From the NCBI GenBank assembly GCA_037893225.1, contig JAZGUH010000088.1, positions 1,214,501 through 1,278,500 of the forward strand: 64,000 nt of DNA, in the 5' to 3' direction. How positions within the stretch are numbered: position 1 is the first letter of the stretch; the number at the start of each line of letters is the position of its first letter. Position numbers and translations under genes: made by a program. Shown in pieces: positions 9,851-49,382 of the stretch. Under the pieces are notes generated by a model, which searched no databases, had not been told where the DNA came from, and was given only the letters and a program-made list of their open reading frames with translations. This DNA comes from Hippasteria phrygiana. Taxonomy: Eukaryota > Echinodermata > Asteroidea > Valvatida > Goniasteridae.

Positions 9851-10149
9851 CTAGGAGTTCCTATTGATATTATAGAAAGTAAATAAATATTTCATCAAAT
9901 CCGTGCGCCCAACAATCTCTTTGGCTAGACATTCACCGAGTTGTCGAACTTGAGAGGGTCCGTCAGCGTCTTGCTTATCGCGCCAGGCAATCAGCATCTG
10001 GAAAATCTGCATCCGCGCGTTCCGTTGGTAGTCTTCTCTGAACGTTTCCAACTCGGGATTATTGAACTCCAGTTGAAGGCCCAGACGGACCATGTCGCTT
10101 GGAGCAAGCTTTCTCGCTAACTCGTCGAGGAAGCAGTCGCTCAAATATT
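9851..10149 (-). CDS. Death-domain protein, last exon
   Basis: The exon encodes about 98 residues forming a death domain, the six-helix module that assembles apoptosis and innate-immune complexes. Visible pattern: LSDCFLDELARKLAPSDMVR (helices 1-2), LGLQLEFNNPELETF, then a long helix ending QMLIAWRDKQ with the typical Leu/Ile-x-x-W, and a closing RQLGECLAKEIVGRTDLMKY. The acceptor CCGCAG ends at 10150, so the exon starts at 10149 in phase with two bases of a split codon. The stop is at 9851-9853. The partner exons and so the protein name (UNC5, PIDD or another type) cannot be decided. No typical polyadenylation signal stands out within 150 bp downstream. Confidence 0.75.
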
Positions 10150-10290
10150 CTGCGGAATGCAATCGGTTGGAGATAAACCATAAAAGAATAGTATTTTTCG
10201 GTAATTACAAAATCCGAATCCAGTCAAACAAACCACAAGGAAAACTAACTTGGTAACTTTGAAAGAATTTACAACGTGAACAAAGAAAAC

Positions 10291-17709: not shown

Positions 17710-18483
17710 TTAACTTTGGACAATCCCGCAGAACTGAATCACGGCATGTTTTCCATCGACCATCCAGTCCTCGTCGGTAGCTGCAGTTTGTTCGGACACG
17801 CCTTCCTCCAGTCCTACGATGACGTCGGCCTTGCTGGTTCGCAAGGCACAGTGGGGTGCAGGATGGAACCCACACAGGGCCTCGGCGTAGGGGACTGTGT
17901 GCTCCCAACGCCGGTCACCGACTAGCTTCCTGTAGTTTAGATCTCCCTTCAGGAGAATCAAATCCGAGCCGGATAGTTCCGAGTGCAAGTCCGGAGCCAC
18001 TGACTGCATATCGCTGTAGTCATGCGGAGTCGTCCAGAACGGATGTCCCAGCAGGCTCCAGGATCCATCCTGCAGTCTCTGCAGCCAACTTTTACCAAGA
18101 TCTCTCAAGACTTTGTTCTCGTGGCGTTCCAGGAAACCCAGAGTGTGCATGAAGTCGCCGTGACAAACATCAGACACAAACCAGGGCATTGCTTTGTAAT
18201 GCATGGCCACTATGTCCACAGCATTCGTCCGCAACACCAGCTCGGCCAAACACAAGTCTGTGAACAGTTCAAAGCCAGCGTTATCCAGGACGATATCTAA
18301 TCTGACCTGGCGATTCTCGCTTTGGTGATCGCGAGCTTTTTGCAAGCACTGCCACAGTTTCTCGGTGTCGTCAACAAGAATCTTGTCCTTCAACTCCTTG
18401 AGTTGAGACAGTGGCCTTATCTTCTGCGAGTTTTCTACACCGGCCGAGATGGACAGATCACACTTGTTTCCCCATAGCGAAAT
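17710..18483 (-). CDS. ARMT1: ARMT1, exon 5 (last): DUF89 catalytic region
   Basis: Encodes 257 residues of ARMT1 (acidic residue methyltransferase 1, DUF89 family), a metal-dependent damage-control phosphatase also reported to methylate glutamates. The exon opens ISLWGNKCDLSIS, then carries the metal-site motif VLDNAGFELFTDLCLAELVL, PWFVSD, VAPDL, the phosphate-site motif LLKGDLNYRKLVGDRRWE, GFHPAPHCALRTSKADVIVG and a C-terminal FCG. All hallmark acidic and Asn residues are present. The acceptor TTTTACAG ends at 18484, so the exon starts at 18483 in phase 0. The stop TAA is at 17710-17712. Joined with exons 2 to 4 the protein is about 423 residues plus a missing first exon, in line with about 440 for the vertebrate protein. 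Confidence 0.95.
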   Translation of the reverse strand: MSLWGNKCDLSISAGVENSQKIRPLSQLKELKDKILVDDTEKLWQCLQKARDHQSENRQVRLDIVLDNAGFELFTDLCLAELVLRTNAVDIVAMHYKAMPWFVSDVCHGDFMHTLGFLERHENKVLRDLGKSWLQRLQDGSWSLLGHPFWTTPHDYSDMQSVAPDLHSELSGSDLILLKGDLNYRKLVGDRRWEHTVPYAEALCGFHPAPHCALRTSKADVIVGLEEGVSEQTAATDEDWMVDGKHAVIQFCGIVQS

Positions 18484-18571
18484 CTGTAAAACAAATTTCA
18501 AATAAAATTTATTTTGAGGCTAAGATGATATGTTTAAAGTTTTGTGTTTCCTAGATACAGGAAAATGCCCT

Positions 18572-21149: not shown

Positions 21150-21337
21150 TTAACCCCTTCTTTCCCGCTGTTATTGATGGGATGTTGGTATGCCAAGACG
21201 GGCTTGTGCATCCAAGTGTAACGCAAACAATAGGTAAACAATGGATTGAATACACACAGGAATGAGCATGGACGACAACCGGCCAGGTGGTCTTTTTCAA
21301 TCCGCGACTATGGCCGTCGTCCGTATTCAAGAGGTAA
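21150..21337. mobile_element. Solo TTAA MITE related to the 170-bp satellite unit
   Basis: Starts TTAACCCCTTCTTTCCCGCT and ends CCGTATTCAAGAGGTAA. In reverse orientation it aligns over its whole length to one satellite unit plus the two terminal pieces found only at the outer edges of the 25209-36279 array. Its right end is 92 bp from the donor of ARMT1 exon 4. Confidence 0.9.
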
Positions 21338-21428
21338 TGATCTTGATCATAAATCATTGTTGCTATATATCTATTTGTTTCTCGACAATGACTGCTTTCA
21401 TTTGTGTGTAGCTCTTTCCAAACCTCAC

Positions 21429-21908: not shown

Positions 21909-22170
21909 CAGTAGAACATCACTATAACGAACACCGCTATACCAAAAATTTGGCTATAATGAACAGATCTTTGGCTCCCAAATTGATGTATTCAATGCAT
22001 TATTCACTATAACGAACAACCGCTATAGTGAACATTTGGCTATAATGAACATCCTCTTTGGCACCTAAATTGATAGTATTCAGTACATACCATTATTCAC
22101 TATAACGAACAACCGCTATAGTGAACAATTTTTGTGGACCTGTGATTTTCATTATAATGGCATTCTACTG
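21909..22170. mobile_element. pogo/Tc1-like MITE with TA flanks
   Basis: Ends CAGTAGAACATCACTATAACG and TTATAATGGCATTCTACTG, flanked by TA at 21907-21908 and 22171-22172. The internal CACTATAACGAACAACCGCT occurs twice, with a third imperfect copy near the left end. CAGTAGAA ends with a TA target are typical of pogo/Tigger-type elements. Confidence 0.85.
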
Positions 22171-23440: not shown

Positions 23441-23682
23441 CTTTCTCTGATAGATTCCACAATCCTACGATACATGTAGCATTCCACATACAGCCAGGGC
23501 GAGTAGAACCAGCTTGGGGGACGCCCCCCGTTCCTCTCAGTTTCCGCGTCTAGATAGCGCTGCCATACCGTACTGTCGTCGCCCTCATTGCTCACCAGGG
23601 GAAGAATTGGCTTGTCCGTCTGTAGCTCATTGCGGAATTTGGCAAGACTGGCGACAATGGATTTACAGTCAGTCGCTCCCTC
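23441..23682 (-). CDS. ARMT1: ARMT1, exon 3
   Basis: 242 nt encoding EGATDCKSIVASLAKFRNEL, then QTDKPILPLV, VWQRYLD, GGRPPSWFYSPWLYVECYMY and RRIVESIRE. The ELQTDKP, WFYSPWL and VECYMYRRI blocks are diagnostic of ARMT1. The acceptor TTTTTAG ends at 23683 and the donor AAG/GTAAAG lies at 23441/23440. Phase in is 0 and two bases are left over, matching exon 4. The long open frame in another phase overlapping here is a shadow. Confidence 0.95.
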
Positions 23683-23744
23683 CTAAAAATAATGGATGCA
23701 GGGAACAACACTAAACTTATTGTCAATCCAAGTTCCGTAAGGGT

Positions 23745-24060
23745 CCTTATAACGTTCTGATAACAAGAAACCAAACTCTAGCCTGTATTTTACAGTAATT
23801 ATTCTGCAAGTGTCAAGGGTTTTACAGACGGGAACAATAAACCTCTATCCACAAAAAGTTACCGTTCACAAAAATGCGGCATTTGACACTGTTAAGCGCC
23901 GTAACTTTTCTATTAAAATAGCATGAGTCGTATCTGTACGTGCATATATTTTTTTCTCGAATACTCACACCAGCAAAAAGGTATTTAAACATGTTAAATA
24001 TTCAGTTGATGATCGAATATTCGAATATCCGGTTGATGATCGAATATTCGAATATTCGGT
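23745..24060. repeat. Dispersed repeat shared with 52225-52505
   Basis: ACGTTCTGATAACAAGAAACC, AAGTGTCAAGGGTTTTAC, ACAATAAACCTCT, AAATGCGGCATTTGACACTG and ATATCTGTACGTG-like blocks appear in the same order at 52225-52505. It ends in short palindromic GAATATTCGAATATTC repeats. Confidence 0.8.
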
Positions 24061-24607
24061 ATTTTCGGCACAGCTCTATTATATTTCTTCTTGTGTGGCT
24101 CCAGGGCTCAAATTTCTGGGGGGAAATCTGCTCAAGAAACCAAATACACTGGAAAGAATTTTTTAGGATCAGAAACAGTTGCGAAGATGAAATACGGTTT
24201 ATAGGCCTACCATGTTTGTTCCCCACTCGGTGTATCACCGAGCAAAACTGAAATGCACTGAATGAAGTTTTAAGAATCTAGCAGATAACCTAATTTGCTA
24301 CAGGTGGTGTTGCTTTGTGAGGTACATGCAACTTTGAAAATGAAACTGTCTACACGGAACATTTCAGGGGGAACCAAGGCAACAATCATGGGAACAGAAA
24401 GCCAAAGTGATGACATGACGTCGCTGCAATGTTTTAACACTATGACAGAGCAATCTTCAGGGAACAGTTTCAAAATCGCGACAACCATTTTCATAATGCC
24501 CATTTGCTCAGTAGCCCTTCAAAAAAAAAGTTTGTAGAACCAGCTGCTATGCCAACCGACGTCCCACTTCTGTATTCTACTGAAGTTAATCACCAATATT
24601 GCCTGTA

Positions 24608-24837
24608 TTAACCCCTTGACCCCGGGTTTTAGATGGGAGGCACCGGGGCACCGGGGCCCCAGGTCGGGTTATGCAGCCAAGCGAAACGGAAACAAGAGGC
24701 TTGTGCAGCCAAGCATAACGTACACAATACCCCAATAATGGATTGAAAGTGCAGAAATTGACACAAATAGAAGTCAACCGGCCTGGTGACAATTTTAAAT
24801 CTGCACGTATTTGTGTCAACCGTACGCAAGGGGTTAA
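24608..24837. mobile_element. TTAA MITE, CCCCTTG type
   Basis: Starts TTAACCCCTTGACCCCGGG and ends GTACGCAAGGGGTTAA. It is an inverted relative of 38935-39136. It shares its right TTAA with the next element (24834-25156), so one inserted at the edge of the other. Confidence 0.85.
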
Positions 24838-25156
24838 CACTAACCCACCTCAATCCTCCAAAATCCTCCTTGCAGTTTTGGAGGATTTTGCAGGATTCAG
24901 GATGAATGGTATTTTATTTAAAAGAGGATTTTGGAGGATTGAGGATGAATGGTGTTTCAAACGAGGATTTTGGAGGATTGAGGATGAATGGTATTTCTTT
25001 TTAAAGAGGATTTTGGAGGATTGAGGATGAATGGTGTGTAGAGCAGAGGATTTTGGAGGATTGAGGATGAATGCATTTTTGGGGGCAGGGTAATCGGAGG
25101 ATTTTGGAGGATTGAGGATGGTTCCTAGCAAAAAGGGTCTAGGGGGTTAGGGTTAA
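24834..25156. mobile_element. TTAA MITE carrying an internal minisatellite, copy 2
   Basis: Starts TTAACACTAACCCACCTC and ends GGGGGTTAGGGTTAA. About six units built on GAGGATTTTGGAGGATTGAG plus GATGAATGGT fill the middle. It is an inverted relative of 19280-19491 with more units. Confidence 0.9.
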
Positions 25157-25208
25157 GTCCAGATCAAACTTGAATCCGTGAAGGACCATGAGGACCAGAA
25201 CGTTTCAT

Positions 25209-28200
25209 TTAACCTCTTGAATACAGACGACGGCCATAGCTGCAGTTTGAAAAAGACCACCTGGTCCGTTGTCATTTATACGCGCATTCCTGCACATACT
25301 CAATCCATTCTTTGCCTATTGTTTGTATTACGCTCGGGTGCATAAGCCCATCTTGGCATACCAGCACCCCATTAATAACAGCTGACCAGAATACGGACGA
25401 CGGCCATAGCTGCAGTTTGAAAAAGACCACCTAGGCGGTTGTCGTCTATAAGCGCATTCCTGCACATACTCAATCCATTCTTTGCCTATTGTTTGTATTA
25501 CGCTCGGGTGCATAAGCCCATCTTGGCATACCAGCACCCCATTAATAACAGCTGACCAGAATACGGACGACGGCCATAGCTGCAGTTTGAAAAAGACCAC
25601 CTAGGCGGTTGTCGTCTATAAGCGCATTCCTGCACATACTCAATCCATTCTTTGCCTATTGTTTGTATTACGCTCGGGTGCATAAGCCCATCTTGGCATA
25701 CCAGCACCCCATTAATAACAGCTGACCAGAATACGGACGACGGCCATAGCTGCAGTTTGAAAAAGACCACCTAGGCGGTTGTCGTCTATAAGCGCATTCC
25801 TGCACATACTCAATCCATTCTTTGCCTATTGTTTGTATTACGCTCGGGTGCATAAGCCCATCTTGGCATACCAGCACCCCATTAATAACAGCTGACCAGA
25901 ATACGGACGACGGCCATAGCTGCAGTTTGAAAAAGACCACCTAGGCGGTTGTCGTCTATAAGCGCATTCCTGCACATACTCAATCCATTCTTTGCCTATT
26001 GTTTGTATTACGCTCGGGTGCATAAGCCCATCTTGGCATACCAGCACCCCATTAATAACAGCTGACCAGAATACGGACGACGGCCATAGCTGCAGTTTGA
26101 AAAAGACCACCTAGGCGGTTGTCGTCTATAAGCGCATTCCTGCACATACTCAATCCATTCTTTGCCTATTGTTTGTATTACGCTCGGGTGCATAAGCCCA
26201 TCTTGGCATACCAGCACCCCATTAATAACAGCTGACCAGAATACGGACGACGGCCATAGCTGCAGTTTGAAAAAGACCACCTAGGCGGTTGTCGTCTATA
26301 AGCGCATTCCTGCACATACTCAATCCATTCTTTGCCTATTGTTTGTATTACGCTCGGGTGCATAAGCCCATCTTGGCATACCAGCACCCCATTAATAACA
26401 GCTGACCAGAATACGGACGACGGCCATAGCTGCAGTTTGAAAAAGACCACCTAGGCGGTTGTCGTCTATAAGCGCATTCCTGCACATACTCAATCCATTC
26501 TTTGCCTATTGTTTGTATTACGCTCGGGTGCATAAGCCCATCTTGGCATACCAGCACCCCATTAATAACAGCTGACCAGAATACGGACGACGGCCATAGC
26601 TGCAGTTTGAAAAAGACCACCTAGGCGGTTGTCGTCTATAAGCGCATTCCTGCACATACTCAATCCATTCTTTGCCTATTGTTTGTATTACGCTCGGGTG
26701 CATAAGCCCATCTTGGCATACCAGCACCCCATTAATAACAGCTGACCAGAATACGGACGACGGCCATAGCTGCAGTTTGAAAAAGACCACCTAGGCGGTT
26801 GTCGTCTATAAGCGCATTCCTGCACATACTCAATCCATTCTTTGCCTATTGTTTGTATTACGCTCGGGTGCATAAGCCCATCTTGGCATACCAGCACCCC
26901 ATTAATAACAGCTGACCAGAATACGGACGACGGCCATAGCTGCAGTTTGAAAAAGACCACCTAGGCGGTTGTCGTCTATAAGCGCATTCCTGCACATACT
27001 CAATCCATTCTTTGCCTATTGTTTGTATTACGCTCGGGTGCATAAGCCCATCTTGGCATACCAGCACCCCATTAATAACAGCTGACCAGAATACGGACGA
27101 CGGCCATAGCTGCAGTTTGAAAAAGACCACCTAGGCGGTTGTCGTCTATAAGCGCATTCCTGCACATACTCAATCCATTCTTTGCCTATTGTTTGTATTA
27201 CGCTCGGGTGCATAAGCCCATCTTGGCATACCAGCACCCCATTAATAACAGCTGACCAGAATACGGACGACGGCCATAGCTGCAGTTTGAAAAAGACCAC
27301 CTAGGCGGTTGTCGTCTATAAGCGCATTCCTGCACATACTCAATCCATTCTTTGCCTATTGTTTGTATTACGCTCGGGTGCATAAGCCCATCTTGGCATA
27401 CCAGCACCCCATTAATAACAGCTGACCAGAATACGGACGACGGCCATAGCTGCAGTTTGAAAAAGACCACCTAGGCGGTTGTCGTCTATAAGCGCATTCC
27501 TGCACATACTCAATCCATTCTTTGCCTATTGTTTGTATTACGCTCGGGTGCATAAGCCCATCTTGGCATACCAGCACCCCATTAATAACAGCTGACCAGA
27601 ATACGGACGACGGCCATAGCTGCAGTTTGAAAAAGACCACCTAGGCGGTTGTCGTCTATAAGCGCATTCCTGCACATACTCAATCCATTCTTTGCCTATT
27701 GTTTGTATTACGCTCGGGTGCATAAGCCCATCTTGGCATACCAGCACCCCATTAATAACAGCTGACCAGAATACGGACGACGGCCATAGCTGCAGTTTGA
27801 AAAAGACCACCTAGGCGGTTGTCGTCTATAAGCGCATTCCTGCACATACTCAATCCATTCTTTGCCTATTGTTTGTATTACGCTCGGGTGCATAAGCCCA
27901 TCTTGGCATACCAGCACCCCATTAATAACAGCTGACCAGAATACGGACGACGGCCATAGCTGCAGTTTGAAAAAGACCACCTAGGCGGTTGTCGTCTATA
28001 AGCGCATTCCTGCACATACTCAATCCATTCTTTGCCTATTGTTTGTATTACGCTCGGGTGCATAAGCCCATCTTGGCATACCAGCACCCCATTAATAACA
28101 GCTGACCAGAATACGGACGACGGCCATAGCTGCAGTTTGAAAAAGACCACCTAGGCGGTTGTCGTCTATAAGCGCATTCCTGCACATACTCAATCCATTC

Positions 28201-31200
28201 TTTGCCTATTGTTTGTATTACGCTCGGGTGCATAAGCCCATCTTGGCATACCAGCACCCCATTAATAACAGCTGACCAGAATACGGACGACGGCCATAGC
28301 TGCAGTTTGAAAAAGACCACCTAGGCGGTTGTCGTCTATAAGCGCATTCCTGCACATACTCAATCCATTCTTTGCCTATTGTTTGTATTACGCTCGGGTG
28401 CATAAGCCCATCTTGGCATACCAGCACCCCATTAATAACAGCTGACCAGAATACGGACGACGGCCATAGCTGCAGTTTGAAAAAGACCACCTAGGCGGTT
28501 GTCGTCTATAAGCGCATTCCTGCACATACTCAATCCATTCTTTGCCTATTGTTTGTATTACGCTCGGGTGCATAAGCCCATCTTGGCATACCAGCACCCC
28601 ATTAATAACAGCTGACCAGAATACGGACGACGGCCATAGCTGCAGTTTGAAAAAGACCACCTAGGCGGTTGTCGTCTATAAGCGCATTCCTGCACATACT
28701 CAATCCATTCTTTGCCTATTGTTTGTATTACGCTCGGGTGCATAAGCCCATCTTGGCATACCAGCACCCCATTAATAACAGCTGACCAGAATACGGACGA
28801 CGGCCATAGCTGCAGTTTGAAAAAGACCACCTAGGCGGTTGTCGTCTATAAGCGCATTCCTGCACATACTCAATCCATTCTTTGCCTATTGTTTGTATTA
28901 CGCTCGGGTGCATAAGCCCATCTTGGCATACCAGCACCCCATTAATAACAGCTGACCAGAATACGGACGACGGCCATAGCTGCAGTTTGAAAAAGACCAC
29001 CTAGGCGGTTGTCGTCTATAAGCGCATTCCTGCACATACTCAATCCATTCTTTGCCTATTGTTTGTATTACGCTCGGGTGCATAAGCCCATCTTGGCATA
29101 CCAGCACCCCATTAATAACAGCTGACCAGAATACGGACGACGGCCATAGCTGCAGTTTGAAAAAGACCACCTAGGCGGTTGTCGTCTATAAGCGCATTCC
29201 TGCACATACTCAATCCATTCTTTGCCTATTGTTTGTATTACGCTCGGGTGCATAAGCCCATCTTGGCATACCAGCACCCCATTAATAACAGCTGACCAGA
29301 ATACGGACGACGGCCATAGCTGCAGTTTGAAAAAGACCACCTAGGCGGTTGTCGTCTATAAGCGCATTCCTGCACATACTCAATCCATTCTTTGCCTATT
29401 GTTTGTATTACGCTCGGGTGCATAAGCCCATCTTGGCATACCAGCACCCCATTAATAACAGCTGACCAGAATACGGACGACGGCCATAGCTGCAGTTTGA
29501 AAAAGACCACCTAGGCGGTTGTCGTCTATAAGCGCATTCCTGCACATACTCAATCCATTCTTTGCCTATTGTTTGTATTACGCTCGGGTGCATAAGCCCA
29601 TCTTGGCATACCAGCACCCCATTAATAACAGCTGACCAGAATACGGACGACGGCCATAGCTGCAGTTTGAAAAAGACCACCTAGGCGGTTGTCGTCTATA
29701 AGCGCATTCCTGCACATACTCAATCCATTCTTTGCCTATTGTTTGTATTACGCTCGGGTGCATAAGCCCATCTTGGCATACCAGCACCCCATTAATAACA
29801 GCTGACCAGAATACGGACGACGGCCATAGCTGCAGTTTGAAAAAGACCACCTAGGCGGTTGTCGTCTATAAGCGCATTCCTGCACATACTCAATCCATTC
29901 TTTGCCTATTGTTTGTATTACGCTCGGGTGCATAAGCCCATCTTGGCATACCAGCACCCCATTAATAACAGCTGACCAGAATACGGACGACGGCCATAGC
30001 TGCAGTTTGAAAAAGACCACCTAGGCGGTTGTCGTCTATAAGCGCATTCCTGCACATACTCAATCCATTCTTTGCCTATTGTTTGTATTACGCTCGGGTG
30101 CATAAGCCCATCTTGGCATACCAGCACCCCATTAATAACAGCTGACCAGAATACGGACGACGGCCATAGCTGCAGTTTGAAAAAGACCACCTAGGCGGTT
30201 GTCGTCTATAAGCGCATTCCTGCACATACTCAATCCATTCTTTGCCTATTGTTTGTATTACGCTCGGGTGCATAAGCCCATCTTGGCATACCAGCACCCC
30301 ATTAATAACAGCTGACCAGAATACGGACGACGGCCATAGCTGCAGTTTGAAAAAGACCACCTAGGCGGTTGTCGTCTATAAGCGCATTCCTGCACATACT
30401 CAATCCATTCTTTGCCTATTGTTTGTATTACGCTCGGGTGCATAAGCCCATCTTGGCATACCAGCACCCCATTAATAACAGCTGACCAGAATACGGACGA
30501 CGGCCATAGCTGCAGTTTGAAAAAGACCACCTAGGCGGTTGTCGTCTATAAGCGCATTCCTGCACATACTCAATCCATTCTTTGCCTATTGTTTGTATTA
30601 CGCTCGGGTGCATAAGCCCATCTTGGCATACCAGCACCCCATTAATAACAGCTGACCAGAATACGGACGACGGCCATAGCTGCAGTTTGAAAAAGACCAC
30701 CTAGGCGGTTGTCGTCTATAAGCGCATTCCTGCACATACTCAATCCATTCTTTGCCTATTGTTTGTATTACGCTCGGGTGCATAAGCCCATCTTGGCATA
30801 CCAGCACCCCATTAATAACAGCTGACCAGAATACGGACGACGGCCATAGCTGCAGTTTGAAAAAGACCACCTAGGCGGTTGTCGTCTATAAGCGCATTCC
30901 TGCACATACTCAATCCATTCTTTGCCTATTGTTTGTATTACGCTCGGGTGCATAAGCCCATCTTGGCATACCAGCACCCCATTAATAACAGCTGACCAGA
31001 ATACGGACGACGGCCATAGCTGCAGTTTGAAAAAGACCACCTAGGCGGTTGTCGTCTATAAGCGCATTCCTGCACATACTCAATCCATTCTTTGCCTATT
31101 GTTTGTATTACGCTCGGGTGCATAAGCCCATCTTGGCATACCAGCACCCCATTAATAACAGCTGACCAGAATACGGACGACGGCCATAGCTGCAGTTTGA

Positions 31201-34200
31201 AAAAGACCACCTAGGCGGTTGTCGTCTATAAGCGCATTCCTGCACATACTCAATCCATTCTTTGCCTATTGTTTGTATTACGCTCGGGTGCATAAGCCCA
31301 TCTTGGCATACCAGCACCCCATTAATAACAGCTGACCAGAATACGGACGACGGCCATAGCTGCAGTTTGAAAAAGACCACCTAGGCGGTTGTCGTCTATA
31401 AGCGCATTCCTGCACATACTCAATCCATTCTTTGCCTATTGTTTGTATTACGCTCGGGTGCATAAGCCCATCTTGGCATACCAGCACCCCATTAATAACA
31501 GCTGACCAGAATACGGACGACGGCCATAGCTGCAGTTTGAAAAAGACCACCTAGGCGGTTGTCGTCTATAAGCGCATTCCTGCACATACTCAATCCATTC
31601 TTTGCCTATTGTTTGTATTACGCTCGGGTGCATAAGCCCATCTTGGCATACCAGCACCCCATTAATAACAGCTGACCAGAATACGGACGACGGCCATAGC
31701 TGCAGTTTGAAAAAGACCACCTAGGCGGTTGTCGTCTATAAGCGCATTCCTGCACATACTCAATCCATTCTTTGCCTATTGTTTGTATTACGCTCGGGTG
31801 CATAAGCCCATCTTGGCATACCAGCACCCCATTAATAACAGCTGACCAGAATACGGACGACGGCCATAGCTGCAGTTTGAAAAAGACCACCTAGGCGGTT
31901 GTCGTCTATAAGCGCATTCCTGCACATACTCAATCCATTCTTTGCCTATTGTTTGTATTACGCTCGGGTGCATAAGCCCATCTTGGCATACCAGCACCCC
32001 ATTAATAACAGCTGACCAGAATACGGACGACGGCCATAGCTGCAGTTTGAAAAAGACCACCTAGGCGGTTGTCGTCTATAAGCGCATTCCTGCACATACT
32101 CAATCCATTCTTTGCCTATTGTTTGTATTACGCTCGGGTGCATAAGCCCATCTTGGCATACCAGCACCCCATTAATAACAGCTGACCAGAATACGGACGA
32201 CGGCCATAGCTGCAGTTTGAAAAAGACCACCTAGGCGGTTGTCGTCTATAAGCGCATTCCTGCACATACTCAATCCATTCTTTGCCTATTGTTTGTATTA
32301 CGCTCGGGTGCATAAGCCCATCTTGGCATACCAGCACCCCATTAATAACAGCTGACCAGAATACGGACGACGGCCATAGCTGCAGTTTGAAAAAGACCAC
32401 CTAGGCGGTTGTCGTCTATAAGCGCATTCCTGCACATACTCAATCCATTCTTTGCCTATTGTTTGTATTACGCTCGGGTGCATAAGCCCATCTTGGCATA
32501 CCAGCACCCCATTAATAACAGCTGACCAGAATACGGACGACGGCCATAGCTGCAGTTTGAAAAAGACCACCTAGGCGGTTGTCGTCTATAAGCGCATTCC
32601 TGCACATACTCAATCCATTCTTTGCCTATTGTTTGTATTACGCTCGGGTGCATAAGCCCATCTTGGCATACCAGCACCCCATTAATAACAGCTGACCAGA
32701 ATACGGACGACGGCCATAGCTGCAGTTTGAAAAAGACCACCTAGGCGGTTGTCGTCTATAAGCGCATTCCTGCACATACTCAATCCATTCTTTGCCTATT
32801 GTTTGTATTACGCTCGGGTGCATAAGCCCATCTTGGCATACCAGCACCCCATTAATAACAGCTGACCAGAATACGGACGACGGCCATAGCTGCAGTTTGA
32901 AAAAGACCACCTAGGCGGTTGTCGTCTATAAGCGCATTCCTGCACATACTCAATCCATTCTTTGCCTATTGTTTGTATTACGCTCGGGTGCATAAGCCCA
33001 TCTTGGCATACCAGCACCCCATTAATAACAGCTGACCAGAATACGGACGACGGCCATAGCTGCAGTTTGAAAAAGACCACCTAGGCGGTTGTCGTCTATA
33101 AGCGCATTCCTGCACATACTCAATCCATTCTTTGCCTATTGTTTGTATTACGCTCGGGTGCATAAGCCCATCTTGGCATACCAGCACCCCATTAATAACA
33201 GCTGACCAGAATACGGACGACGGCCATAGCTGCAGTTTGAAAAAGACCACCTAGGCGGTTGTCGTCTATAAGCGCATTCCTGCACATACTCAATCCATTC
33301 TTTGCCTATTGTTTGTATTACGCTCGGGTGCATAAGCCCATCTTGGCATACCAGCACCCCATTAATAACAGCTGACCAGAATACGGACGACGGCCATAGC
33401 TGCAGTTTGAAAAAGACCACCTAGGCGGTTGTCGTCTATAAGCGCATTCCTGCACATACTCAATCCATTCTTTGCCTATTGTTTGTATTACGCTCGGGTG
33501 CATAAGCCCATCTTGGCATACCAGCACCCCATTAATAACAGCTGACCAGAATACGGACGACGGCCATAGCTGCAGTTTGAAAAAGACCACCTAGGCGGTT
33601 GTCGTCTATAAGCGCATTCCTGCACATACTCAATCCATTCTTTGCCTATTGTTTGTATTACGCTCGGGTGCATAAGCCCATCTTGGCATACCAGCACCCC
33701 ATTAATAACAGCTGACCAGAATACGGACGACGGCCATAGCTGCAGTTTGAAAAAGACCACCTAGGCGGTTGTCGTCTATAAGCGCATTCCTGCACATACT
33801 CAATCCATTCTTTGCCTATTGTTTGTATTACGCTCGGGTGCATAAGCCCATCTTGGCATACCAGCACCCCATTAATAACAGCTGACCAGAATACGGACGA
33901 CGGCCATAGCTGCAGTTTGAAAAAGACCACCTAGGCGGTTGTCGTCTATAAGCGCATTCCTGCACATACTCAATCCATTCTTTGCCTATTGTTTGTATTA
34001 CGCTCGGGTGCATAAGCCCATCTTGGCATACCAGCACCCCATTAATAACAGCTGACCAGAATACGGACGACGGCCATAGCTGCAGTTTGAAAAAGACCAC
34101 CTAGGCGGTTGTCGTCTATAAGCGCATTCCTGCACATACTCAATCCATTCTTTGCCTATTGTTTGTATTACGCTCGGGTGCATAAGCCCATCTTGGCATA

Positions 34201-36279
34201 CCAGCACCCCATTAATAACAGCTGACCAGAATACGGACGACGGCCATAGCTGCAGTTTGAAAAAGACCACCTAGGCGGTTGTCGTCTATAAGCGCATTCC
34301 TGCACATACTCAATCCATTCTTTGCCTATTGTTTGTATTACGCTCGGGTGCATAAGCCCATCTTGGCATACCAGCACCCCATTAATAACAGCTGACCAGA
34401 ATACGGACGACGGCCATAGCTGCAGTTTGAAAAAGACCACCTAGGCGGTTGTCGTCTATAAGCGCATTCCTGCACATACTCAATCCATTCTTTGCCTATT
34501 GTTTGTATTACGCTCGGGTGCATAAGCCCATCTTGGCATACCAGCACCCCATTAATAACAGCTGACCAGAATACGGACGACGGCCATAGCTGCAGTTTGA
34601 AAAAGACCACCTAGGCGGTTGTCGTCTATAAGCGCATTCCTGCACATACTCAATCCATTCTTTGCCTATTGTTTGTATTACGCTCGGGTGCATAAGCCCA
34701 TCTTGGCATACCAGCACCCCATTAATAACAGCTGACCAGAATACGGACGACGGCCATAGCTGCAGTTTGAAAAAGACCACCTGGCCAGTTGTCATCTATA
34801 TGCGCATTCCTGCACATACTCAATCCATTCTTTGCCTATTGTTTGTATTACGCTCGGGTGCATAAGCCCATCTTGGCATACCAGCACCCCATTAATAACA
34901 GCTGACCAGAATACGGACGACGGCCATAGCTGCAGTTTGAAAAAGACCACCTAGGCGGTTGTCGTCTATAAGCGCATTCCTGCACATACTCAATCCATTC
35001 TTTGCCTATTGTTTGTATTACGCTCGGGTGCATAAGCCCATCTTGGCATACCAGCACCCCATTAATAACAGCTGACCAGAATACGGACGACGGCCATAGC
35101 TGCAGTTTGAAAAAGACCACCTAGGCGGTTGTCGTCTATAAGCGCATTCCTGCACATACTCAATCCATTCTTTGCCTATTGTTTGTATTACGCTCGGGTG
35201 CATAAGCCCATCTTGGCATACCAGCACCCCATTAATAACAGCTGACCAGAATACGGACGACGGCCATAGCTGCAGTTTGAAAAAGACCACCTAGGCGGTT
35301 GTCGTCTATAAGCGCATTCCTGCACATACTCAATCCATTCTTTGCCTATTGTTTGTATTACGCTCGGGTGCATAAGCCCATCTTGGCATACCAGCACCCC
35401 ATTAATAACAGCTGACCAGAATACGGACGACGGCCATAGCTGCAGTTTGAAAAAGACCACCTAGGCGGTTGTCGTCTATAAGCGCATTCCTGCACATACT
35501 CAATCCATTCTTTGCCTATTGTTTGTATTACGCTCGGGTGCATAAGCCCATCTTGGCATACCAGCACCCCATTAATAACAGCTGACCAGAATACGGACGA
35601 CGGCCATAGCTGCAGTTTGAAAAAGACCACCTAGGCGGTTGTCGTCTATAAGCGCATTCCTGCACATACTCAATCCATTCTTTGCCTATTGTTTGTATTA
35701 CGCTCGGGTGCATAAGCCCATCTTGGCATACCAGCACCCCATTAATAACAGCTGACCAGAATACGGACGACGGCCATAGCTGCAGTTTGAAAAAGACCAC
35801 CTAGGCGGTTGTCGTCTATAAGCGCATTCCTGCACATACTCAATCCATTCTTTGCCTATTGTTTGTATTACGCTCGGGTGCATAAGCCCATCTTGGCATA
35901 CCAGCACCCCATTAATAACAGCTGACCAGAATACGGACGACGGCCATAGCTGCAGTTTGAAAAAGACCACCTGGCCAGTTGTCATCTATATGCGCATTCC
36001 TGCACATACTCAATCCATTCTTTGCCTATTGTTTGTATTACGCTCGGGTGCATAAGCCCATCTTGGCATACCAGCACCCCATTAATAACAGCTGACCAGA
36101 ATACGGACGACGGCCATAGCTGCAGTTTGAAAAAGACCACCTAGGCGGTTGTCGTCTATAAGCGCATTCCTGCACATACTCAATCCATTCTTTGCCTATT
36201 GTTTGTATTACGCTCGGGTGCATAAGCCCATCTTGGCATACCAGCACCCCATCAATAACAGCTAGACAGAAGGGATTAA
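25209..36279. repeat. 11-kb tandem array, 65 units of 170 bp, inside one TTAA MITE
   Basis: The unit boundary GAATACGGACGACGGCCATA recurs every 170 bp from 25219 to 36099, giving 65 starts. The left edge is TTAACCTCTTGAATACAGAC (TTAA 25209-25212) and the right edge is AACAGCTAGACAGAAGGGATTAA-type sequence (TTAA 36276-36279); neither edge occurs at internal junctions. Internal junctions read AACAGCTGACCAGAATACGG. All internal units appear identical except the first (differences around 25261-25283) and two that share a variant patch at 34781-34803 and 35971-35993. The 90-residue minus-strand frame repeated in every unit overlaps its neighbours because 170 is not a multiple of three. Its regularity comes from the repeat, not from protein constraint. 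Confidence 0.97.
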
Positions 36280-37065
36280 ACATAAGCATGTAATTTTGTT
36301 TTTAATCATCTGACCCCATCAAAAGAGAAGGGGAAAACCTCGTCAGACCTTAGCCTTGTCTGCATTGGACTTTTTTTTGTAAAACCTACGGAGACTGTTG
36401 TCAACTTAACCAAATTAAGTCCAATGCGGACAGCCGGTAAGCTTGCCAAATTGTCAAGTGTCGATCGTCAAGTGGCGAGTAGCGGAAGAGTTACGTGGTA
36501 GGTTTTACGTTGCTGAAAAGTCCAGTGCGGACAGCCACGGTAAAGTAAAACCTACATTTTGATCACGTGCCGTCTGCAGATCAATGCATGCCTCTACGAT
36601 TTTGCGAGCTTACGGGACGCGCGCTGGGCCCCATGCATTGTGTACTATAGCTGCAGTTCTGACTGAATGCACGCACGATGACATGAAACTTTCGTTAACT
36701 TTAGCGAATGCTGAGCCACATTTCTGCCGTTTTCTGCTATTTTACTTTGATCTACACGATATCCTAGAAATGATCAGGATATCCTAGAAATGATCAGGAG
36801 TTTGATTGTCGCTTCATGTTGATTCGGAATAAAACACAAATGACGCTTGCATACACAATGAATTGCGTGTAAATTTAGCGCGTTCTACAAAACCACTGGA
36901 TAGTTTCTCTGGCCAAGGACTTTCCGCAAGCCGTGTAATCCAAGTGCGGACGCACGGAAGAATAAACCACAGTGGAATGTTAACAATCACTTACGGTAAC
37001 TTTTGACAATAGTTAGTCCAATGCGAACGCGGCTATAGACTTACAGGAAAAACACCTTTTATTAC

Positions 37066-37171
37066 CTCTCCATATTGTTGAGCTGCCTTTATGCGGTACG
37101 TGTACAGAGTGTCTATCACCTTGGTGAGAATGACTGGAAGTCGATCTCTGATTGTTTTGTATGCAAACGAT
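37066..37171 (-). CDS. ARMT1: ARMT1, exon 2
   Basis: 106 nt encoding SFAYKTIRDRLPVILTKVID followed by TLYTYRIKAAQQYGE, the conserved N-terminal helices of ARMT1. The acceptor TACCTTCAG ends at 37172 and one base completes the codon from exon 1. The donor GAG/GTAATA lies at 37066/37065 and joins exon 3 in phase 0 (YGE then EGATD). Exon 1, expected to give only about 15-20 residues, was not identified to the right. Confidence 0.93.
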
Positions 37172-38934: not shown

Positions 38935-39136
38935 TTAACCCCTTGCGTACGGTTGACACAAATACGTGCAGATTGAAAATTGTCACCAGGCCGGTTGACT
39001 TTTATTTGTGTCAATCTCTGCACTTTCAATCCATTATTAGGATATTGTGTACGTTATGCTTGGCTGCACAAGCCTCTTGTTTCCATTTTGCTTGGCTGCA
39101 CAACCTCCCATCTAAAACCCGAGGTCAAGGGGTTAA
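38935..39136. mobile_element. TTAA MITE, CCCCTTG type, intact
   Basis: TTAACCCCTTGCGTACGGTT to CCCGAGGTCAAGGGGTTAA. The terminal TTAA is present on both sides. It is the cleanest copy of the family that includes 24608-24837, part of 50862-50990 and 5462-5680. Confidence 0.88.
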
Positions 39137-39690: not shown

Positions 39691-40600
39691 AAATTTAGGT
39701 TGATGTCATGTGACGCTTCGCCACACACATCAACTGGTTATGCATTTTTAACATTGTTCAACCTCCTGCAAGAGGGCGCCCTAACAATTTATGACGTCAC
39801 CAGTAATTTTGTTGTTAAGTACAACCTAGCCGGAGACTAACATTGTTGAAAGCAAGTTCACATCTTTTAGCAATTTCAAATTAGAAGGCACTTCCGGTTT
39901 TAACCGGAAGGAAGGGTCACGTGATTTTGCACGTAATATAAAACATGAAGACCCTACAACTGTAGATTATTCTATCAATTCCCACGAAAAGCAAAATCAG
40001 ATCTCTTCCGATTGATTTTATATTGATTTTCAAAGATTAAACTTTCAAATTATAAGGCACTTCCGGTTTGGACCGGAAGGAAGGGTCATGTGACTTTGCA
40101 CGTAATATCAAAAATGAAGAGCCTGGATTATTCTATCAGTTCCCATAAAAAGCAAAATCAGATCTCTCTCGATTGATTTCATAATGATTTCCAAAGATTA
40201 AACTTTCAAATTATAAGGCACTTCCAGTTAGGACCGGAAGGAAGGGTCACGTGACTTTGCACGTAATATAAAAAATGAAGACCCTGCATTATTCTATCAG
40301 TTCCCGTAAAAAGCAAAATCAGATCTCTCTCGGTTGATTTTATATTGATTTTGAAAGATTAAATCTAGAAATCTTTCATTGCTTGTAATCCGATATTTGA
40401 TGACGTCATCGTGACGTCATTATGAGAAAGGTCGAGAGTTATGTTAACTCTGCCATCTGAAGCAAATATCTGGATTATATCTCTCGCGGTTGATTTTACA
40501 GCAATTTTGTAAGGTTTAAAGGATTTTTCATTGCAACCTCTGGTCTGGTGACGTCATCAATCTTACATAACGGTAAATATTTGCACCAGTTCTAAAGTCA
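39690..40600. repeat. Tandem repeat of about 165 bp with ETS and E-box motifs, left block
   Basis: Three units begin near 39887, 40056 and 40217 with GGCACTTCC, then ACCGGAAGGAAGGGTCACGTG (TCATGTG in the second), GCACGTAATAT, AGCAAAATCAGATCTCT and TTGATTT. A 200-bp leader (CGCTTCGCCACACACATCAA to AACATTGTTGAAAGCAA) precedes them. The same leader and one unit recur at 43484-43910. Confidence 0.88.
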
Positions 40601-48479: not shown

Positions 48480-48716
48480 GTGTGGGCTGCAGAGGAAAGT
48501 GTGGAAGAACCAGCCCCTCACACTGAAACAAGACACGATAAACTGATCTCTTCACAGTATGAATAGGGTCGGGATGGGTAACTAGTCCACTGCAAGGCAT
48601 TAATAATGCCTCTATCCATATTAAGCGCTATGGTCCAGGACTGGGCTCGAACCCACAACTTGCAGAATTACCCGCAGACCACAAATTTAATGCTCCAAAC
48701 CACTAGGCCACGGCAC
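48480..48716 (-). mobile_element. tRNA-derived SINE, second family
   Basis: The minus strand starts GTGCCGTGGCCTAGTGGTTT (good pol III A box TGGCCTAGTGG) and carries GGGTTCGAGCCC (B box, 48643-48654). The body extends about 170 bp further. It lies in NAA80 intron 2. Confidence 0.7.
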
Positions 48717-48753
48717 TTCCACATGTACATTGTACATATGTTTGAATCAACAG

Positions 48754-48932
48754 TGGTAGTCCCTGAAAATCTTCGAGGCAGAGGCCTGGGAAGGCGAGTC
48801 ATGGAGCTAGCGGAGTCCCACGCCAGGATGCAAGGCTTCAAGACGATGTACCTCAACACTAAAGACAAACAGGACTTCTATGCGCACCTGGGATATGAAT
48901 ACTGCAAAGCAGTCAACACGCTAGATGCACAG
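48754..48932 (+). CDS. NAA80: NAA80, third coding exon: acetyl-CoA binding core
   Basis: 179 nt encoding VVVPENLRGRGLGRRVMELA then ESHARMQGFKTMYLNTKDKQ and DFYAHLGYEYCKAVNTLDAQ. RGRGLG is the R-x-x-G-x-G acetyl-CoA pyrophosphate loop, and FYAHLGYE is the C-terminal GNAT signature. The acceptor CAACAG ends at 48753 and two bases complete the split Val codon. The donor CAG/GTATGA ends at 48932 in phase 0. Confidence 0.92.
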
Positions 48933-49066
48933 GTATGAGGAGTGGGAGGGGGTGGACCAAAGTTTGTAGAGAAGGGGTGGGGCCAGTGGCGCAGCCAGTG
49001 CAAGGGTTCAAGGGGCATGAGCCCTACCCAAGAGCTTGTCAATTCTTAAATTTTCATTTCTTAAAT

Positions 49067-49382
49067 TTAACCCCTTGTGTCCAGCTGTCATTGATGGGTG
49101 GCTGTATGCCAAGAATAGGCTGTGCAGCCAAGCGTAAATGCAAACAATAGGCACCACACTGAATAGAGTGGTGCTGTTCATTGCACTTGGAGCCCCCCCT
49201 TTCGTGTGAATGAAAGCTTTGTTTGAAAAAGCTCCATCTATTTATTATACTCCCATTCAAGAACAATAGAGTTGAAACATGAATGGATTGAGTACGCACA
49301 GGAATGCATGTATAGATGACAACCAGTCAAGTGGTCATTTTCAAACCACGGCTATGGCCATCGTTCGTATTTAAGAGGTTTA
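49067..49382. mobile_element. TTAA MITE related to the satellite unit, with an insert
   Basis: Starts TTAACCCCTTGTGTCCAGCT and ends CGTTCGTATTTAAGAGGTTT. It shares ATTGATGGG, GCACAGGAATGCATG and GGCTATGGCCATCGTTCGTA with 21150-21337 and the array, but about 125 bp of other sequence (around 49155-49275) interrupts it. Confidence 0.75.

Follow-up and report, generated by a model that had tools for sequence, protein, structure and literature searches.

The window analysed here, a stretch of 64,000 bp from the sea star Hippasteria phrygiana (GenBank assembly GCA_037893225.1, contig JAZGUH010000088.1), carries the ARMT1 gene on its minus strand. An open reading frame of 263 aa (17710-18501, minus strand) was assigned to ARMT1 (Pfam PF01937) with best matches in Patiria miniata (82%), Acanthaster planci (79%) and Asterias amurensis (71%), and the proteins of these three species were used to map the exons. 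Intron 2, whose borders are GT and AG, is 82.7% occupied by a tandem array, which confirms the location within a conserved gene, between exons 2 and 3, given in the original prediction:

37066..37170, minus strand, ARMT1 exon 2
23683..37065, minus strand, ARMT1 intron 2 (GT-AG), 13,383 bp
23443..23682, minus strand, ARMT1 exon 3

Among the neighbours of ARMT1, open reading frames had Pfam matches to ChaC (256-753), a death domain (9851-10162) and a GNAT acetyltransferase (48606-48938), and between the array and exon 2, at 36352-37037, lies a repeat of about 690 bp that is dispersed in dozens of copies at 83-90%. When 1 kb of the flank was used as a query, the best 40 of 1424 candidates contained a single 100% match, the locus itself, and no second allele of it in the assembly, the other long matches belonging to a dispersed repeat (83-90%).

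Tandem Repeats Finder reported 65.0 copies of a 170-bp period at 25219-36271 with 99% matches. Together with its two ends the element measures exactly 10 + 65 x 170 + 11 = 11071 bp, as required by the predicted 65 repeats of 170 bp between two edges, and comprises the following parts (positions within units are counted from the first base of the unit):

25209..36279, plus strand, whole element: MITE ends and 65 units of 170 bp
25209..25218, plus strand, left MITE end TTAACCTCTT, single occurrence
25219..25388, plus strand, unit 1, with A at position 7 and, at positions 45-63, the major block of a second array on contig C241 (described below)
34739..34908, plus strand, unit 57, with a third block type at positions 45-63, the same as in unit 64
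35929..36098, plus strand, unit 64, of the same sequence as unit 57
36099..36268, plus strand, unit 65, at the host MITE's right-hand outer edge (C155, AGACA)
36269..36279, plus strand, right MITE end GAAGGGATTAA; together with C155/AGACA of unit 65 it represents a subtype unlike the internal junctions

Near-zero divergence had been predicted, and it holds in the assembly, the sole source of all unit counts and divergence values: 61 of 65 units are mutually identical. Unit 1 has seven differences, unit 65 has four, and units 57 and 64, seven units apart, have the same five each. In units 1, 57 and 64, all differences fall within positions 45-63, the one at position 7 of unit 1 excepted, a clustering expected under random placement with a probability of about 4e-4 (five of five) or 2.5e-4 (six of seven). 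The array resembles satellite DNA in being long, head-to-tail, homogenised and non-coding: it contains no open reading frame of 100 aa, the repeated units have stops in all six frames (within the first 120 residues of translation), and a coding role is thereby ruled out. The core of the CENP-B box was not found on either strand, and two joined units contained neither AATAAA nor ATTAAA on either strand. Folding of the unit was unremarkable (z of -0.9 and -0.2 against 100 mononucleotide shuffles), and viral and prokaryote collections yielded no relatives (0 matches).

The edges of the array are the ends of a TTAA MITE, as had been predicted, and two single copies of this element lie elsewhere in the window:

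21150..21339, minus strand, single copy of the array's MITE, 83.5% identical to the unit
49067..49382, minus strand, single copy of the array's MITE, about 80-82% identical to the unit and split by an extra stretch

The MITE is about 190 bp long and has piggyBac-type ends. Beside the TTAA on both sides stand short inverted ends (TTAACCTCTT and, with the right end reversed, TTAATCCCTT) that are alike at 8 of 10 bases, and the same layout recurs at 21150-21339 and in related copies. In this MITE, TTAA is followed by CC. PiggyBac ends carry CCC motifs (PMC10813416), and Kolobok ends follow a 5'-RR..YY-3' rule, according to PMC9587614; since the ends found here start with CC, piggyBac fits and Kolobok does not, and a Kolobok identity was ruled out by the end bases. 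A related family of MITEs with TTAACCCCTTG is represented by two copies (24608-24837, which is 371 bp left of the array, and 38935-39136) that resemble parts of the unit at about 70%.

Whether the edges also occur inside the array depends on what is taken as an edge. The transposon ends TTAACCTCTT and AAGGGATTAA were each found once, at the outer edges, and the interior comes no nearer to them than 3/10 and 4/10 mismatches, respectively, so that their predicted absence from the interior stands; it does not extend to the tetramer TTAA itself, which is present in 64 of the 65 units (CCATTAATAAC), with a C at this place in unit 65. All 64 internal junctions of the window array are alike over 22 bases (the junction pattern of the 170-bp array is AACAGCTGACCAGAATACGG), and a transposon end within 3 mismatches was found at none of them. 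The terminal sequence at junctions had been named beforehand as the mark of serial insertion, and with 64 of 64 junctions free of end sequence, serial MITE insertion is ruled out. Drosophila offers a likeness in its transposon dimers and in a hobo tandem of 16 copies (McGurk and Barbash, as covered in PMC12628747), in which tandem DNA transposons provide material for satellites, but a double insertion of that kind would leave ends at the junctions.

A search of the whole genome for the unit, which had been suggested together with the prediction, covered 944 Mb in 1285 contigs and revealed a second array, of 25 units of 170 bp, on contig C241 (about 177707-181977, minus strand). With the window array (65 units) and this one (25 units), the genome contains at least two arrays of the 170-bp unit that are enclosed by MITE ends, a result that runs against a purely local origin. 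The C241 array lies between ends of its own, TTAACCTCTTGCATACGG and GACCAGAAAGGGGTTTA, with TTAA mutated to TTTA on the right; it has the same internal junction as the window array, and its flanks (13.7 kb) show short matches only, the longest of 199 bp, to the array-masked window. Its 25 units comprise 18 of one sequence, a pair of another and five that each occur once, giving 7 distinct sequences. A junction query of 120 bases gave 24 full-length matches, exclusively on C241, with other places matching one half (best 39 of 2718 candidates); no short arrays of 2-10 units were among the matches listed, in which the places besides C241 are single or partial copies. The window array is absent from both match listings though it is in the genome record, and other arrays may therefore exist.

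The MITE itself is dispersed and non-coding, and occupies at least 38 single places besides C241 (best 39 of 3947 candidates scored). Our main alignment included 38 single copies (the copy at 21150 and 37 of the 38 listed places); five copies from junction-query matches brought the total to 43 (four of them align over the left half only), and nine further copies, including the 38th listed place, were considered in addition, several of them gapped or restricted to one half. Being split, the copy at 49067 was not counted. Identity of the 38 single copies to the unit ranged from 83 to 92% (mean 87%) in a set that is not a random sample, because its members were chosen as best matches to the unit; with these values, the family looks old relative to the array.

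Comparison of the two arrays with the single copies separated what is shared from what is not. Unit positions 64-154 have one sequence in 65/65 window units and 24/25 C241 units, and the signature C92 T108 C117 G120 T125 was found in none of the 38 well-aligned single copies, nor in any of 14 further copies, many of which align only in part and can be read at some of the five sites but not at every one. A history of one MITE insertion followed by internal amplification had been proposed for the window array, and the C241 array, with this signature missing from 38/38 single copies, speaks against it. Three block types exist at positions 45-63, again in none of the 38 single copies: block W in 62/65 window units and 3/25 C241 units (units 1, 6 and 12), block C in 1/65 window units (unit 1) and 19/25 C241 units, and the third block in window units 57 and 64 only. 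A hairpin or quasi-palindrome had been considered as the cause of the clustering at 45-63 and was dropped, given that two of the three block types occur in both arrays. At positions 14-26, the type GAGTA is present in 65/65 window units and in 5/38 single copies, and other types in 25/25 C241 units. With the edge units set aside (window units 1 and 65, C241 units 1 and 25), variation among the 90 units is confined to positions 14-63, and the 120 bp outside this stretch are invariant. In unit 25 of C241, the bases at 92-132 are like those of the family and the following ones like those of the arrays, a pattern that fits a birth locus, but also a later conversion.

The outer right ends show a different distribution. 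The window array terminates in C155/AGACA, whereas its other 64 units and 25/25 C241 units have T155/GACCA, the outer edge and the junction form differing at positions 155, 166, 167 and 168. MITE ends do enclose the array, and its unit derives from the MITE interior; the enclosing right end is nevertheless of another subtype than 64 of 64 junctions, and the predicted enclosure by the termini of the founder is thereby not supported. The closest single copy to the window's outer end (L014; 2/27 mismatches) is the one copy among 43 with C155-AGA, and T155-GAC was found in 6/43. The C241 array ends at the right in the junction-like GACCAGAA, through to which another single copy (L091) matches the unit. 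Among the 38 single copies, A168 and C168, the two common forms of the right edge, are present in 17/38 each, and C155 with A168 in 8/38. Between the two loci, 5 substitutions in the outer right ends stand against 0/91 in the bodies (Fisher p = 3e-4), with counts entered by hand for 24 end sites, 23 bases before TTAA in the window and a one-base insertion omitted; over the approximately 23 bases compared, a gapped alignment allows fewer substitutions and more gaps. The left ends of the two arrays differ at 2/17 bases. Ends that are older than the bodies they enclose imply either transfer of array DNA from one locus to the other or exchange that preserved the likeness of the bodies.

Three histories of how the array reached its present place might account for this pattern. 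We favour homologous transfer of array DNA into a MITE that was already resident in ARMT1 intron 2, and assign this reading a probability of roughly 0.55; the history of one insertion grown from its own founder is incomplete and probably wrong. Amplification in place, with the MITE of this intron as the source of the C241 units and with a later change at the outer right edge of the window array, would agree with a length of exactly one MITE plus 64 units, with an interior devoid of ends and with the occurrence of GAGTA, a common single-copy type, in every window unit, but we consider it unlikely, because the outer right edge departs from the junctions at four positions, both right-edge forms exist as separate single-copy subtypes, and the form of the junction sits at the edge of C241 and not at that of the window array. 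Alternatively, a transposase acting in trans might have carried an entire MITE, array included, to another TTAA site, as is supposed for array-carrying MITEs such as miDNA4; array-carrying MITEs have been described in frogs (PMC12628747), and both arrays lie between recognisable MITE ends with TTAA (TTTA on one side of C241). Such movement alone does not explain ends older than bodies, the outer ends differing far more than the bodies, and arrays of 2-10 units are missing among the listed matches besides C241, which makes this history improbable.

Under homologous transfer, the first tandem copy would have been born in a MITE of the C241 type, in which a right edge (..CCAGAA) may have been joined to a left edge (TTGAATAC) at a 3-bp overlap, GAA. 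This join would lie just inside the 10-bp end repeats, so that the unit lacks both ends; an overlap of 3 bp is weak evidence. Array DNA, in the form of a circle or through break-induced copying or long gene conversion, might then have recombined into the resident MITE, where unequal exchange and conversion would have expanded and homogenised it to 65 units, leaving the outermost bases untouched. Odd edge units flanking a uniform interior are what unequal exchange and conversion are expected to produce. The direction of transfer could also have been another, C241 having received its units from the window array or from a third one that has escaped notice. At positions 14-26, every unit of one array differs from those of the other, so that the window unit is itself a hybrid or comes from another donor. 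We regard the array as a presumably selfish repeat of nucleosome-like length that would be spliced out with the intron, and propose no host function. More tentatively, and as a somewhat doubtful generalisation, dispersed MITE copies might serve as homologous docking sites: array DNA born in one copy would invade others, keep their outermost bases and expand in them, and the satellite would thereby spread without transposing.

Unit number and near-identity might instead have been created during assembly, by graph unrolling or by polishing that flattened variants. The 61 units without an isolated difference, the confinement of the internal differences to a single block of 19 bp, which polishing based on mapping could leave intact, and the identity of units 57 and 64, as if a loop had been walked twice, are compatible with such an artefact; however, C241 keeps 7 distinct sequences in 25 units, so variation was not flattened there, and we judge the artefact very unlikely. 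Positions 25100-34500 are free of N and agree fully with the genome record, which shows only that both derive from one assembly. If mutation is assumed to proceed at 2e-9 to 1e-8 per site per generation, the lack of private changes in 61 units would mean that homogenisation last took place within about 145,000 to 29,000 generations, a date that is void if polishing erased variants.

Satellites borne by MITEs are established, as the original prediction stated, with Xstir, miDNA4 and others as examples (PMC12628747 and PMC9659126); what is new here is the presence of two MITE-enclosed arrays with common units and unlike outer ends. In miDNA4 of Xenopus (Scalvenzi and Pollet), as in our element, the interior of the MITE occurs either singly or in tandem arrays that vary in length, and short direct repeats were proposed to drive the change in copy number, according to these two sources. 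MiDNA4 was, however, filed as Tc1/mariner and its satellite is said there to have been captured, whereas the element described here has TTAA/piggyBac-type ends, amplifies the MITE's own interior and is enclosed by a right end of another subtype than its units. The Xstir and MITE tandem repeats of Xenopus (Hikosaka and Kawahara, as covered in PMC12628747) also consist of MITE-interior repeats and occur in MITE, array and composite forms; in comparison with that account, the unit in H. phrygiana takes up nearly all of the sequence that separates the end repeats, and sharing of units between two enclosed arrays is documented. Entry of a satellite into existing repeats has a parallel in Rsp-like, which invaded 1.688 arrays in Drosophila with circles and crossovers implicated in its spread (Sproul et al. 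2020, as cited in PMC9562144 and PMC7919458), but its landing sites were arrays of another satellite, and here another MITE of the same family would take that role. For plant centromere arrays, conversion between loci and the re-insertion of circles have been discussed as well (PMC10264360). Among the open-licence papers listed for satellite DNA of sea stars and for MITE or TTAA elements of asteroids and echinoderms, titles and the beginnings of abstracts mention no comparable case.

Birth and spread of satellites have mostly been argued from old and decayed arrays. At this locus both ends, the junction, single-copy relatives and a second array with common blocks can all be read, and birth, transfer and expansion thus become separable base by base. 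If MITEs are docking sites, the spread of a satellite would track the map of an old transposon family, and an intronic repeat of 11 kb, nearly identical throughout and situated in a conserved gene, offers a natural test of array-length variation and of its effect on splicing.

Two smaller tandem duplications were also observed in the window. At 39874-40363, a 161-bp unit is present three times in tandem (89% matches) without a visible transposon end. The other, at 21909-22170, is a small transposon (TA-CAGTAGAAC...TTCTACTG-TA), with ends that are presumably pogo/Tigger-like, which contains 2.4 tandem copies of a 93-bp unit and represents a second, small internal duplication in a MITE within ARMT1.
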